A stretch of 64,000 nt of DNA from Asanoa sp. WMMD1127 (lineage in GTDB: Bacteria; Actinomycetota; Actinomycetes; Mycobacteriales; Micromonosporaceae). The notes under the pieces were generated by a model. That model saw only the letters and a list, made by a program, of their open reading frames with translations. It was not told the origin of the DNA and searched no databases. The translations under genes and the position numbers were made by a program. This document shows, in pieces, positions 19,348 to 23,245 of this stretch; within the stretch, counting starts at the first letter, position 1; each line of letters begins with the position of its first letter. The stretch is taken from assembly GCF_029626225.1 (NCBI RefSeq), contig NZ_JARUBP010000001.1:7564001-7628000 (forward strand), in the 5' to 3' direction.

Positions 19348-19366
19348 TTCGGTGGCCCAGGTCACA

Positions 19367-19372
19367 TATCAT
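19367..19372 (+). promoter_or_regulatory. -10 element TATCAT, leaderless start
   Basis: TATCAT ends exactly 7 nt before ATG 19380, and no Shine-Dalgarno is present. Confidence 0.5.
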
Positions 19373-19379
19373 CGCCGCC

Positions 19380-19979
19380 ATGTGGGCCAACCTCACCCAG
19401 CCACAAGCCGTCCTGCTCGCCGGCTTGTTCGGCGCAGCGGGAGCGGTACTTGGTGGCCTCATCGCGAATGTCGCCGGTCAGTGGATCGGCTCGGGCGGCC
19501 AGCGCCGTCGGCAATGGCTGGAGTTGCGCCACGTCGCATACGCAGAAGTGCTGGAGTGCTTCCACGCCGCGTGGGCCCTCTATGACGATGCCGGGGCTCG
19601 GCAGCCGTCACGCAGGGAAGAGGAACGAGCAGGCCTGAAACTGCTGGCGGCCTTTTCTCGCGCCGCACTGCTGACTCGAAGACGATCCACTGACCAGGCG
19701 TTGACGCGCTTGCATACCGCGGCGCAGGCCCTTTGGTCACGAGACGGACGTAGATGGTCCGAGGTCGACGACGCGTGCCGCGCCGCTGAGGCGGCATTCC
19801 GCCAGGCCGCTCGCGCCGAGCTCGGGATGCGGAGGCACCCCATGACCGATCGCCGGACGGAGGAGCCGTCAGCTGCTGCGTTTGAGGGCCAGCTTGATAC
19901 TGATCGCTCCGTCTCCGTCAGCGGCGCCGATGAGGACCCCGCCGGAGCTGAGCACACTGATGCCGAACGTCGCTTCTAG
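19380..19979 (+). CDS. small membrane-anchored hypothetical protein
   Basis: This 199-residue protein has one N-terminal transmembrane segment (residues 10-36, Gly/Ala/Leu-rich) and a charged helical cytoplasmic region (WLELRHVAYAEVLECFHAAW...). I recognise no family. The last 37 or so codons run antisense into the convergent Trypco1 gene (111-nt overlap), so the tail may be recently acquired read-through. The start is supported by the leaderless -10. It is divergent from the TetR/MMPL operon and shares its operator region. Its base composition is less G/C-biased than its neighbours. Confidence 0.6.
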   Translation: MWANLTQPQAVLLAGLFGAAGAVLGGLIANVAGQWIGSGGQRRRQWLELRHVAYAEVLECFHAAWALYDDAGARQPSRREEERAGLKLLAAFSRAALLTRRRSTDQALTRLHTAAQALWSRDGRRWSEVDDACRAAEAAFRQAARAELGMRRHPMTDRRTEEPSAAAFEGQLDTDRSVSVSGADEDPAGAEHTDAERRF

Positions 19980-20174
19980 GGACTCCACCTGCCACGATGG
20001 CGACTCGGCGGTGGCGTTGGCGGCGTCTTGCGCGATGTTCACGATTTCCAGGAGCGCGGCTCGCAACTCGCCACGGCGCGCTTCGATCGGGGTCGTGCCG
20101 CGGCGGTAAGGGCCTATCTGCCGCCCGCTCGCGGCGATCTCGACGGTCTCCACAAGCAGTTTCTCGACAGTCAT
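19869..20174 (-). CDS. Trypco1 (CU044_2847-family) trypsin-co-occurring protein
   Basis: This 101-residue protein matches the Trypco1 / CU044_2847 pattern: an N-terminal strand pair (LLVETVEIA), a central helix (ELRAALLEIVNIAQDAANA) and the diagnostic C-terminal VESLEATFGISVLSSGGVLI followed by SIKLALKR. This domain was named for co-occurring with trypsin-like proteases in predicted actinobacterial conflict or signalling systems. The protease gene is divergent, about 130 bp away. ATG 20174 has GAGGTG upstream. It probably binds or regulates the protease or its target; this is not proven. Confidence 0.8.
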   Translation of the reverse strand: MTVEKLLVETVEIAASGRQIGPYRRGTTPIEARRGELRAALLEIVNIAQDAANATAESPSWQVESLEATFGISVLSSGGVLIGAADGDGAISIKLALKRSS

Positions 20175-20289
20175 TCCAGCTTCACCTCAAGCCGCACCGT
20201 GTTGGACCGTCCACCATGACACCAATCAATGATCTTGTCACGGCAGGAAACCATCCGGACAGGCGATAAGTAAGTCAGCCTCACCGGCA

Positions 20290-20295
20290 TATCGT
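20290..20295 (+). promoter_or_regulatory. -10 element TATCGT, leaderless start of protease
   Basis: TATCGT ends 7 nt before ATG 20303. This selects that ATG over the GTG at 20294, which lies inside the element. Confidence 0.5.
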
Positions 20296-20302
20296 GAACG
20301 CG

Positions 20303-21166
20303 ATGAGCAATAGCCAGGCTCCGGCGGATCAGGAAGCGTGGGGCCAGGACGACGAGTACGTTGTCCAGCTTCGCAACGAAGAGAAAACACTGGGCGCCGC
20401 CTTCTTCGTGACAGCCCGGTTCCTGCTGACGGCCGCCCACGTTCTTCATCCCCTGCCGCGCGATCAAACCACGGTTGAGATCGTGCACAGCGGAGTCCGC
20501 CTCCAGGGACGCATCGCTCAGCGAACCAGCCGCTTCGACGTAGCGTTGATCGAACTCGTCGATGACCGGCCCGGCCGGGTGCGACCGCCGCCGGCCGGCC
20601 GTTGCCGCCCACGTGAAGATTGGTGTTCGCCTTACCGCCCCGATGTCGGCGAGCCCGCCCTGACCGGCTCGGTGGAAGCTGTGGACATCGCCTACCAGTG
20701 CGAGGAGGGCGAGGTGATGCGCGCTCTCCAGCTGGTCTCCCGGCTTGACCTCGGTGATTTCTCCGGCTACTCCGGAGCGCCTGTCGAGCGCGTTGTTACC
20801 GACGCGCGACCCACGTTGGCCGGTCTGTTGCTCGAGCAGGTTTGGCGCCGTGAGACTGGGCCTCGCCAGGCGCGAACGGCCTCTAATGTGCTGTTCGCTG
20901 GAACCCTCGCGCAGGCACTCTCCTGTTTCGACCATTTCGACGTCGGCCATCTCTTGTCCGTGCTCACCAAGCCGAACCAGGACGACGCGCCGACGGACGC
21001 CGCCAACGTCGTGACTTCCAGTCGCGCCACAAAGGCAGTTCAAGAGGCTGACATTCTGCTGAGGGCGCTTGACGACTGGGCGGCCCGCGGCATCTACGAC
21101 GACGGGGAGTTGTCGCTGCTGAGGCTCCGGGTCGCCAACAACGTCATCGATAGCGCGATGAGATGA
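20303..21166 (+). CDS. intracellular trypsin-like serine protease
   Basis: This 287-residue S1-fold (chymotrypsin/trypsin-like) protease has no signal peptide, so it probably acts in the cytoplasm. The catalytic triad is intact: His46 in LLTAAHVL, Asp79 in RFDVALIEL, and Ser157 in GDFSGYSGAPV. The last 45 or so residues form a helical tail outside the protease fold. The gene ends in an ATGA overlap with the TPR-sigma fusion gene, so the two are made together. With the divergent Trypco1 gene this makes a compact protease/regulator locus. A role in cleaving the adjacent sigma fusion is my inference. Confidence 0.85.
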   Translation: MSNSQAPADQEAWGQDDEYVVQLRNEEKTLGAAFFVTARFLLTAAHVLHPLPRDQTTVEIVHSGVRLQGRIAQRTSRFDVALIELVDDRPGRVRPPPAGRCRPREDWCSPYRPDVGEPALTGSVEAVDIAYQCEEGEVMRALQLVSRLDLGDFSGYSGAPVERVVTDARPTLAGLLLEQVWRRETGPRQARTASNVLFAGTLAQALSCFDHFDVGHLLSVLTKPNQDDAPTDAANVVTSSRATKAVQEADILLRALDDWAARGIYDDGELSLLRLRVANNVIDSAMR

Positions 21167-23154
21167 GTCGGATATCAGGTGATCTGCTCGGCGCCGCCGA
21201 AGGGCTAGTTCTCGGAGCATCGACGAACGAGGAGCAGGCGGTCGTTCAGCAGGTGTCGCGTCTCGTCGACGAGCTCGACCGCTCGGTGGCGACGCGTGAC
21301 TGGCCACGCATCAGATATCTCGCCGTTCTCCTTGACCGATCTGGTCTACAGCCCGGAGCGGCATCCCTCCTGCTACGGGTGGCCGAGATCGCAGCTGGAC
21401 TGGCGGTGGGAGCTGAAGCCAACAATCTGCGTGCGATGCTGGCGATCCGCGACGGTCGGCCGCGGGAGGGCGCGGAAATTCTCGAGGACGCCTTTCTCGA
21501 GGCCAGCATCTGCGGGGCCGACGTGCTAGGTCCCATCACGGTCAACCTGGTCACGGCGTACCAGCTGATGGGCGACCCGTCGGCCACAGCCAAATGGCTC
21601 GACCGCTGCGATCGACTCTTGCCACGCGACGCGACCGCGACCGCGGTCCGGACACAGGAGTGGATCTCGCGGGGTGGCCTTGCAGCAAATGAGATCGACG
21701 GCCGGGGCGTAAGTCGCGCGCTCGAGGAGATCGTCGGTTCGACCGGCCGGCAGGCCGGCGCCGGACCGCCGACGGACGCGGTCACGGCGGCTGAAGTAGC
21801 GCGGCTGGGGCTCGAAGCGGGGCGGCTGAACGGTGATCCCGAGCTGATGCGTAGGTGCGCCGACACCCTCGAGTCGCTTGGGCAGTTGATCGGTTCGACT
21901 TACGACGCGGACGACACCCGCGCCCTGGTGGTCCACGCCAACGCGGCGGTTGCGGGATTCGAGGTCGCGCGTCACAGCGACGCCGGGAACGTCGCCGCTG
22001 CGGCGAATCGGCTTAGGGACATCGCGGAAAATGTGCGCATTTCGCTGGGCGACAGCCATCCGAAGACGCTGGCGCTCGCCGCAAACGCGTTGATAGCAGA
22101 CCTCGAGCGAGCGCGCACCGAGACCTCCTTATCCTCTTTCGAGCAGGCGATACGCGAGTTGGACCACTTGGCCGCACGGCAGGCGGCCATCTTGGGCCCA
22201 ACTCACGCACAGACGCTCACGAGCCAGGCCAACCTCGCTTGCGCACGGGTGGAACTGGCGCTACAGACAGCGTCGCCAGCTCTGCTGGATCGCGCGACGA
22301 ACGCCCTGTCCAGCGCGATCGAGGCGTGCTCAAACGCGCTCGGCGACGACCACCCGGCAACTCTGGTTCTTCGACAGCAGCTTCGCATCTGCGACGATCA
22401 ATCCGGTTCGGAGACGTCGGGTGGCCTGGCCACTCGGGTGCTGCCGAAGACTCGGCAGGATCGAGGTGGCGGCTACTCGTCCTTCGAGCTGGCTGGGCAG
22501 CGCCTCTTGCACGGGCCTAACTGGCAGCCACCTCCAACTCCCGGGAAACAGCCTGACGCTGGCCAGGACTCGCCCGGGGCGGCGCCGAGCCGCTCGGACG
22601 AGGTCGGCACGCTGGTGGAACGGGCTCAGGCAGGTGATTCGGATGCGTTCGGCCAGATCTACGACCGGTACTTCGACACGGTGTTCCGCTTCATCTATTT
22701 CAGGGTCGGGAATCAGCTTCTGGCCGAAGATCTGACGTCGGACACATTTCTTCGGGCCCATAAGCGCATCCACAGCTTCAGCTGGGGGTCGCGTGACCTT
22801 GGAGCCTGGCTGGTGACGATCGCTCGTAACCTCGTAGCTGATCATTTCAAATCCGGCCGGTACCGGCTGGAGGCGATCACCGGAGAGGCGCTCGGCACCG
22901 GCCGGCAGGACGACAGCCCCGAAGGCCGTCCCGAGGACACGGTTGTCGATCACATCACGAACGTCACCCTGCTCACCGCAGTGAAACAGCTCCCCCCTGA
23001 GATGCAGGAAGTGATTGTGCTGCGCTTCTTGCAGGGCTTCTCGGTTGCCGAGACGGCACAGGCGATGGGCCGTAACGAAGGCTCGGTGAAGGCGCTTCAG
23101 TACCGCGCCGTTCGACGGTTGGCGCGGTTGTTGCCGGAGGGCTTCCAGCCATAG
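21163..23154 (+). CDS. TPR protein fused to a BldN-like ECF sigma factor
   Basis: This is a single 663-residue reading frame. Residues 1-410 are alpha-helical with TPR-type repeats, including three kinesin-light-chain-like signatures (LGDSHPKTLALAANAL about 295, LGPTHAQTLTSQANLA about 345, LGDDHPATLVL about 394). A Pro/Gly/Ser linker (about 411-478) follows. Residues 481-566 are sigma region 2 (YDRYFDTVFRFIYFRVG, LTSDTFLRAHKRI) and 600-657 are region 4 (LPPEMQEVIVLRFLQGFSVA, ALQYRAVRRLARLLP). The sigma half closely resembles BldN, which is made with an N-terminal pro-region removed by proteolysis. Here the N-terminal region is far larger and a trypsin-like protease is coupled upstream. A rare TTA codon and less biased codons suggest a distinct history. 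Confidence 0.88.
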   Translation: MSRISGDLLGAAEGLVLGASTNEEQAVVQQVSRLVDELDRSVATRDWPRIRYLAVLLDRSGLQPGAASLLLRVAEIAAGLAVGAEANNLRAMLAIRDGRPREGAEILEDAFLEASICGADVLGPITVNLVTAYQLMGDPSATAKWLDRCDRLLPRDATATAVRTQEWISRGGLAANEIDGRGVSRALEEIVGSTGRQAGAGPPTDAVTAAEVARLGLEAGRLNGDPELMRRCADTLESLGQLIGSTYDADDTRALVVHANAAVAGFEVARHSDAGNVAAAANRLRDIAENVRISLGDSHPKTLALAANALIADLERARTETSLSSFEQAIRELDHLAARQAAILGPTHAQTLTSQANLACARVELALQTASPALLDRATNALSSAIEACSNALGDDHPATLVLRQQLRICDDQSGSETSGGLATRVLPKTRQDRGGGYSSFELAGQRLLHGPNWQPPPTPGKQPDAGQDSPGAAPSRSDEVGTLVERAQAGDSDAFGQIYDRYFDTVFRFIYFRVGNQLLAEDLTSDTFLRAHKRIHSFSWGSRDLGAWLVTIARNLVADHFKSGRYRLEAITGEALGTGRQDDSPEGRPEDTVVDHITNVTLLTAVKQLPPEMQEVIVLRFLQGFSVAETAQAMGRNEGSVKALQYRAVRRLARLLPEGFQP

Positions 23155-23188
23155 CCGAACGGTCCGTGTCCTTTGTAGCGTCGAAACG

Positions 23189-23226
23189 GAGGAGGGCCAC
23201 GGCTCGACCGAGCCGCGACCCTCCTC
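23189..23226. terminator. bidirectional terminator hairpin
   Basis: GAGGAGGG / CCCTCCTC outer stem with an inner CGGCTC / GAGCCG stem. It lies between the convergent TPR-sigma and aceE genes. Confidence 0.65.
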
Positions 23227-23245
23227 TCTCGACAGCCTTGACGAC

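Follow-up and report, generated by a model that had tools for sequence, protein, structure and literature searches.

Background

Trypsin-like peptidases encoded beside Trypco1 (trypsin-co-occurring domain 1) proteins are known from the VMAP/iSTAND ternary systems and other trypsin-Trypco conflict systems (Kaur et al. 2020, PMC7159879; 2021, PMC8195603), which in the passages compared also have variable domains and tetratricopeptide repeats (TPRs) and belong to bacteria of multicellular habit. Here we describe a locus of Asanoa sp. WMMD1127 (genome of 8.0 Mb) which shares these features and lies in a stretch of 64,000 nucleotides, hereafter the window (contig NZ_JARUBP010000001.1, positions 7,564,001 to 7,628,000). 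In it the gene of a trypsin-like serine protease overlaps a gene encoding a TPR half, a linker and an extracytoplasmic function (ECF) sigma factor of BldN type, with a Trypco1 gene divergent from the protease. The locus differs from the ternary systems in that its TPR scaffold is coupled to the protease and in having no MoxR, vWA or VMAP gene; the Pfam scan of window open reading frames (ORFs) P0001 to P0004 gave no MoxR ATPase, vWA or VMAP match. In the family of this module the variable domain, called the cargo below, is often the copy of a host protein, and no such fusion was seen in the compared parts of PMC7159879 and PMC8195603. We propose, at a probability of about 0.5, that the module is an anti-invader conflict system whose scaffold displays the host-protein copy as bait and whose output is the protease.

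BldN of Streptomyces is made as a pro-protein and then processed; in the Asanoa genome's own BldN about 150 residues precede the sigma part (ORF as called), and the fusion has the TPR half in their place. In plants, nucleotide-binding leucine-rich repeat (NLR) immune receptors carry integrated decoys, which are host-derived domains, often a transcription factor or a kinase, exchanged between relatives. The window module has in common with these receptors a host-derived and exchangeable domain, and it differs in lacking a nucleoside triphosphatase, in its unrelated parts and in having no known trigger. By this analogy it may be a bacterial counterpart of the plant bait.

The nuclease-protease pairs of Hachiman, AVAST, Lamassu and DRT (compared passages of PMC12799240) likewise have a trypsin-like protease which acts on the product of a neighbouring gene and which was acquired recurrently, but the partner in the window is a TPR protein with a host-protein copy. 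No family match to a metallo-beta-lactamase-fold nuclease was obtained among the window genes scanned, and the upstream genes are P0004 and Trypco1. ECF42, which the compared parts of a review (PMC8103513) describe along with ECFs with N-terminal extensions, also joins an ECF sigma factor to TPRs; in ECF42 the TPRs are C-terminal, whereas in the window they are N-terminal, the sigma factor is of BldN type and the partner is a protease. The derivation of the cargo from BldN also relates it to BldN/RsbN of Streptomyces (RsbN in the compared part of PMC8103513). Passages of PMC10907252 and PMC12409349 were compared as well. No description of a protease-TPR-host-protein fusion was found in the open-access literature as judged by title and start of abstract, with supplements, most subscription papers and bioRxiv outside the scope; the name Trypco1 is present in two papers of that literature. 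The finding may partly be in print, for example in supplementary tables of papers on conflict systems.

A recurrent module with changing cargo

A wider search with an alignment of six proteases gave 40 loci in genome contigs, 33 of them from Streptomyces; since the scan relied on a single peptide pattern surrounding the active serine, it is not complete. The protease gene overlaps the downstream partner by 4-22 nt at all 39 parsed loci and by exactly 4 nt at 28 of them, the partner start being the first start codon in a search that began 30 nt ahead of the protease stop; the partner of L095 was paired separately, outside the automatic pairing, so the overlap counts cover 39 of the 40 loci. A Trypco1 ORF lies within -3/+4.5 kb of the protease at 38 of the 40 loci, and the next most widespread neighbour family is present at 6 of 46 clustered loci (clusters unnamed). 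By gene order, the joining of protease, TPR partner and Trypco1 in one recurrent module is supported, as the preliminary description of the locus had supposed. A search of other genomes for the same gene order had been proposed as a check; the order recurs for the protease-TPR pair and not for the sigma factor, which was found elsewhere only in G036 among the genomes searched and in a more diverged form (42% identity to that of the window). The proposal of a switch specific for a sigma factor was rejected as a general explanation, since the same protease-TPR pair carries many unrelated cargoes (S1, UMP kinase, PdtaR-like, AfsR, LacI, kinase, HAD and others) and the cargo on one chassis keeps changing, for which such a switch is too narrow.

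Grouping of 45 partners gave about 15 kinds of cargo, after removal of L121 and L128, which duplicate L075 and L077. The cargo was assigned by Pfam in 27 of the 45, the window included, and in the remainder by clustering; L094, L098, L119 and L129 reach a contig end, and no cargo could be read in L094 and L124. The cargoes named by Pfam or NCBIfam are BldN-like sigma, PyrH, S1, PdtaR-like, AfsR, SARP, LacI, SARP plus sigma, HAD, CHAT, kinase, TPR and HTH_58. The PyrH (UMP kinase) cargo scores 263.8 bits, above the cut-off of 243.9, and the AfsR cargo 1424.1 bits, just below 1430. The cargo of ribosomal protein S1 scores 624.8 bits (cut-off 691) and covers model positions 96-447 of 486, so that it is without the first S1 domain. 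A response regulator plus ANTAR makes up the cargo which we take to be PdtaR-like. The partners of L099 and L102 have a short cargo of unrecognised kind.

Most of these cargoes have a close relative in their own genome. Among the matches listed, which is the scope of all Streptomyces values given here, a host copy of at least 68% identity (68-88%) is present in the same genome for 11 of the 15 loci tested, so a host-derived domain, as in integrated decoys, is found at these 11. In Micromonosporaceae the same-genome copies are 77.6% (BldN), 76.7% (S1), 75.5% (PyrH) and 87.8% (PdtaR-like) identical to the cargo. The values elsewhere are 76% for AfsR, 70% for LacI, 68% for HAD, 49% for the L113 sigma factor, 73% for the TPR regulator of L110, 84% for the kinase, 83% for the hydrolase piece of L129 and 85% for the L100 CHAT. 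The paralogue that comes next within each genome is at 44% (AfsR), 45% (LacI), 34% (HAD), 46% (L110 regulator) and 70% (kinase). In the other genomes searched, the Streptomyces cargoes have their best matches at 65-74% for AfsR, 69-71% for LacI, 57-58% for HAD (two genomes), 65-77% for the regulator, 72-76% for the kinase, 72-80% for the hydrolase and only 46-48% for CHAT.

Exchange of the cargo can be followed in one pair of loci. The DNA of L115 matches that of L116 at 88.4% identity along 2,404 bp, which begin at Trypco1 and reach about residue 320 of the partner, and the two proteases are 88% identical, yet the first locus ends in a TPR regulator and the second in a CHAT domain with no detectable similarity between the two cargoes. 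On a protease tree of 44 rows, which omits L073 with its incomplete protease, the 17 cargo labels need 20 changes, where 16 is the least possible and the shuffled mean is 30.6; the cargo thus partly follows descent.

The cargoes of Micromonosporaceae are conserved, the host-invariant positions that are changed being 31 of 184 in PyrH (5 hosts), 8 of 158 in the PdtaR-like cargo (4 hosts) and 35 of 261 in S1 (6 rows, among them the second S1 of G124 described below). Some cargoes look unfit for their normal work. The Asp which we take to be the HAD nucleophile is replaced in one of three HAD cargoes, and the His of the presumably catalytic CHAT motif is missing in three of four (L116, L118 and L122, compared with L100), which suggests that these three are inactive caspase-like domains. 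The HTH_58 cargo spans 27 of 62 model positions; its partner in G124 (L073:5177-6739) is a TPR-HTH_58 protein in one frame with the C-terminal part only of the protease, and for the rest of that protease tblastn found a short piece only, in another frame. L073 is, by its reading frames, a decayed or altered copy.

The TPR-sigma fusion of the window

The arrangement first noticed at this locus was confirmed by the ORFs, Pfam and alignment: the protease has its triad intact and shares an ATGA overlap with a fusion of 663 residues, and Trypco1 is divergent. Of the roughly 410 residues described as TPR-like, Pfam sees only part as TPR (TPR_12, best stretch 312-365), and the half as a whole matches other partners; it aligns with the TPR half of G124 (92.8 bits, 28% over residues 44-410), which adjoins a protease as well, and with the protease-adjoining TPR half of G070 (56.9 bits). 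This similarity was rejected as a proof of the family, as a Streptomyces-only profile gives the window 60.8 bits and ordinary TPR-repeat ORFs up to 66.3; another TPR profile was built from the very partners which it then matched and is no independent proof. Membership of the family therefore rests on gene order and the protease.

The sigma factor had been called a complete BldN-like ECF. Both conserved regions are present (region 2 at residues 499-564 and region 4 at 603-653), and the best NCBIfam model is the BldN family TIGR02952, with a score of 190.6 bits below its cut-off of 206.45; by these scores the sigma half is a BldN derivative and not BldN itself. It is 77.6% identical to the genome's own BldN, and the next paralogue in the genome is at 34%. 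In the tree, from which L179 and the G036 fusion are excluded, it groups with 21 of 27 family BldNs (support 99/90, for the group and not for a place within it) on a branch of 0.27; the grouped hosts have branches of 0-0.08, and the other BldNs of the family up to 0.19. This grouping together with the long branch indicates that the cargo was probably captured within the family and evolves faster. It keeps 131 of the 149 positions invariant in 20 family BldNs and changes 18, none of them within fusion residues 544-570, which are taken to include the part for -10 recognition; on this conservation the sigma half looks intact and functional.

A frameshift artefact, named beforehand as the condition under which the fusion would be spurious, is argued against by the continuous coding pattern, as GC (guanine plus cytosine) is higher at the third codon position than at the second in each of 11 successive blocks of 60 codons. 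A common cleavage site had seemed visible by eye in the linkers (window residues 420-443 and several partners) and was rejected: a profile from three Streptomyces linkers gave the window p 0.23, and only L114 (0.008) fell below 0.05 of the 21 linkers scored.

The protease and Trypco1

The protease matches PF13365 at E 3.4e-6 with 28.3 bits (cut-off 27.6). H46, D79 and S157 are identical in six of six and, in a larger alignment, in 23 of 23 relatives, the 23 being a chosen part of the proteases found and mostly retrieved by a pattern in which the Ser motif GYSG is fixed beforehand, so that the independent check of the triad is confined to H46 and D79. On the triad and the family profile the protease is predicted to be catalytically intact. 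The score of the Trypco1 protein lies above the PF19493 cut-off of 24.6, and its gene is 128 bp from the protease start. PADLOC matches of the protease to RT-Protease_XI were weak (E 2.6e-4) and were not used. The features are collected in Table 1.

Table 1. Features of the module and its site, in window positions
Feature	Position	Strand	Evidence and remarks
P0004	19380-19979	+	small protein, possible fourth component; tail-to-tail with the Trypco1 gene; conserved part about residues 2-155
Trypco1 protein, 101 aa	19869-20174	-	PF19493, E 5.1e-8, 33.9 bits; divergent from protease
Trypsin-like serine protease, 287 aa	20303-21166	+	Pfam Trypsin_2 (PF13365); alternative GTG start at 20294
Catalytic triad codons	H46 20438-20440, D79 20537-20539, S157 20771-20773	+	protease ORF
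ATGA stop/start overlap of protease and fusion	21163-21166	+	sequence
TPR-sigma fusion, 663 aa	21163-23154	+	Pfam TPR_12 and sigma regions 2 and 4
TPR half, fusion residues 1-411	21163-22395	+	TPR_12; similarity to other protease-adjoining TPR halves
Linker, fusion residues 412-470	22396-22572	+	stretch separating the two homologous halves
Cargo, BldN-type ECF sigma factor, fusion residues 471-663	22573-23154	+	similarity to the genome's own BldN
Segment missing from same-genus genome G005	19367-23242		flank alignments, TetR gene to aceE

Distribution, insertion site and neighbouring genes

Protease matches were found in 16 of 354 genomes of the family and in none of five genomes of the same genus. 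The loci of 14 of the 16 were inspected (G098 and G312 are the two outside this set), and the TPR-coupled form is present in five: G000, G124, G070, G036 and G134. An even sample of 397 genomes of the order gave matches at E 1e-15 in only three, the window's own among them. In L079, L084, L086 and L083, with more distant relatives of the protease, the protease gene precedes that of a vWA protein in three cases and of a GGDEF protein in one, which is nearer to the described ternary systems; some of the more distant relatives have vWA or MoxR-like neighbours (assigned partly by eye).

The module lies between a TetR gene on one side and aceE on the other (names given by eye). In the same-genus genome G005 the alignment of the TetR side ends at 19366 and that of the aceE side resumes at 23243; between them stands about 1.1 kb of different DNA where the window has 3.9 kb. 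In the four remaining genomes of the genus, and in four more of the family, the TetR side is unaligned in the stretches compared, and different genes are found beyond the aceE flank. The site is thus variable around aceE, and from these flanks the module looks like an inserted cassette. The DNA past the 3' end of aceE (window about 23243; L194-L202) differs between related genomes and is a possible hot spot of insertion.

P0004, a fourth ORF whose first base is the start of the region as first described, matches no Pfam family above cut-off and has a hydrophobic N-terminus by eye. Homologues occur in 6 of the 354 family genomes (window, L205, L140:525-1055, L206, L207 and L208), and in three of the six (window, G070 and G124) the gene is tail-to-tail with a Trypco1 gene; that of G124 scores 23.3 bits against PF19493, just below the cut-off. 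In the other three no Trypco1 was found among the called genes, a weak test which also missed the one of G124. It is possible that P0004 is a membrane effector or partner.

In G070 the protease, TPR-S1, Trypco1 and P0004 are found together. In G124 a separate and full-length second S1 (L140:1348-2958, minus strand; 788.2 bits, over the cut-off of 691) lies beside the P0004-Trypco1 pair, at a site without protease or TPR which adjoins a gene sharing N-terminal sequence with a gene of G070 (zwf-like by eye). Compared with positions invariant in the housekeeping S1 of the hosts, the G070 cargo differs at 71 and the second S1 of G124 at 65, and both have the same new residue at 19. These shared residues suggest, by count and not by a formal test, a common origin of the two, and a step of capture may be visible in this comparison.

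Interpretation

In the mechanism which we consider, the scaffold would keep the protease inactive, perhaps with Trypco1, and would show the host look-alike. A factor by which an invader attacks the real protein or takes control of it (BldN here; S1, PyrH or AfsR elsewhere) would bind or alter the look-alike, the shape of the TPR scaffold would change and the protease would be released; once freed, it would cut proteins of the cell or of the invader, leading to growth stop or cell death. As the bait would be a replaceable part, the module could change what it guards. A display of bait is favoured because the chassis is constant while the cargo is varied and mostly host-derived and the swap between L115 and L116 is recent, and because several cargoes are housekeeping proteins with no evident signalling sense, some are damaged or incomplete and the spread is patchy. 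Several points weigh on the other side. Neither a trigger nor a defence phenotype nor a target of the protease is known; most cargoes, the sigma factor of the window included, look intact and could act as regulators, and many are transcription regulators, which would fit their release in working form. The TPR-repeat cargo, CHAT and the two short unrecognised tails are not obvious host baits. L111 and L099 have no own-genome copy among the matches listed, the copy of the L113 sigma factor is distant, and the copy of the L100 CHAT, with its low identity in other genomes, could be a second module. For HTH_58 the piece is too short for a verdict and may reflect decay, since the adjoining protease is incomplete; the TPR similarity, too, does not discriminate by itself.

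The regulators among the cargoes (SARP/AfsR, LacI, sigma and PdtaR-like) and the conserved sigma half of the window would also suit a scheme in which the cargo stays tied to the TPR half and silent until a signal prompts the protease to cut the linker, so that a working regulator or enzyme is set free. Release of effectors by proteolysis was proposed for related conflict systems (in the compared part of PMC7159879), and a pro-nuclease activated by a trypsin-like protease is described in that of PMC12799240. We consider such release unlikely as the general role, since it is not obvious what S1 or UMP kinase would signal and no signalling logic common to all cargoes is evident, the cell already has apparently intact copies, some cargoes are damaged or fragmentary, and no shared linker element reaches significance in the window. 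The strong conservation between cargo and host copy could instead mean that the look-alike brings the protease complex to the partners of the real protein (RNA polymerase for BldN, the ribosome for S1, the oligomer for PyrH), which are cut when triggered, the identity of the cargo setting the target. This docking is improbable: in E. coli docking to the ribosome depends on the first S1 domain, which the S1 cargo lacks, and a LacI or HAD cargo has no evident large complex to attack.

A conflict system with no bait at all, in which the cargoes are plain effectors and host genes were taken up since any C-terminal fusion is tolerated, would account for CHAT, kinase and TPR cargoes, which resemble usual parts of conflict systems, and an ECF-like HTH is listed among likely effector domains in the part of Kaur et al. 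2021 compared (PMC8195603). The repeated conservation of the captured copies argues rather for selection on host likeness, and S1, PyrH and PdtaR are not known to be toxins. We judge this explanation improbable too, if anything slightly more so than docking. That the fusion is an isolated artefact or a decaying gene is very improbable; the TPR-BldN arrangement is rare (the window and the more diverged G036), but the coding pattern is continuous, the triad intact and the sigma factor conserved, and the recurrence of the same module at 40 loci elsewhere speaks against it. With the display of bait as the preferred reading, we tentatively put forward, at a little under an even chance, a class of bacterial integrated-decoy receptors in which one protease-TPR chassis captures and swaps copies of host proteins (BldN, S1, UMP kinase, AfsR, PdtaR-like, LacI and kinase).

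Significance

If the cargoes are released in working form, the module would be a general protease-gated way of deploying regulators. Under either reading L115 and L116 are ready natural chimaeras. The predictions of the bait reading for S1, PyrH, BldN and AfsR can each be tested through one domain of one gene. If that reading is true, integrated decoys would exist outside plants, and the list of cargoes would be a catalogue of the host proteins of Actinomycetota which are attacked by phage or toxin factors.

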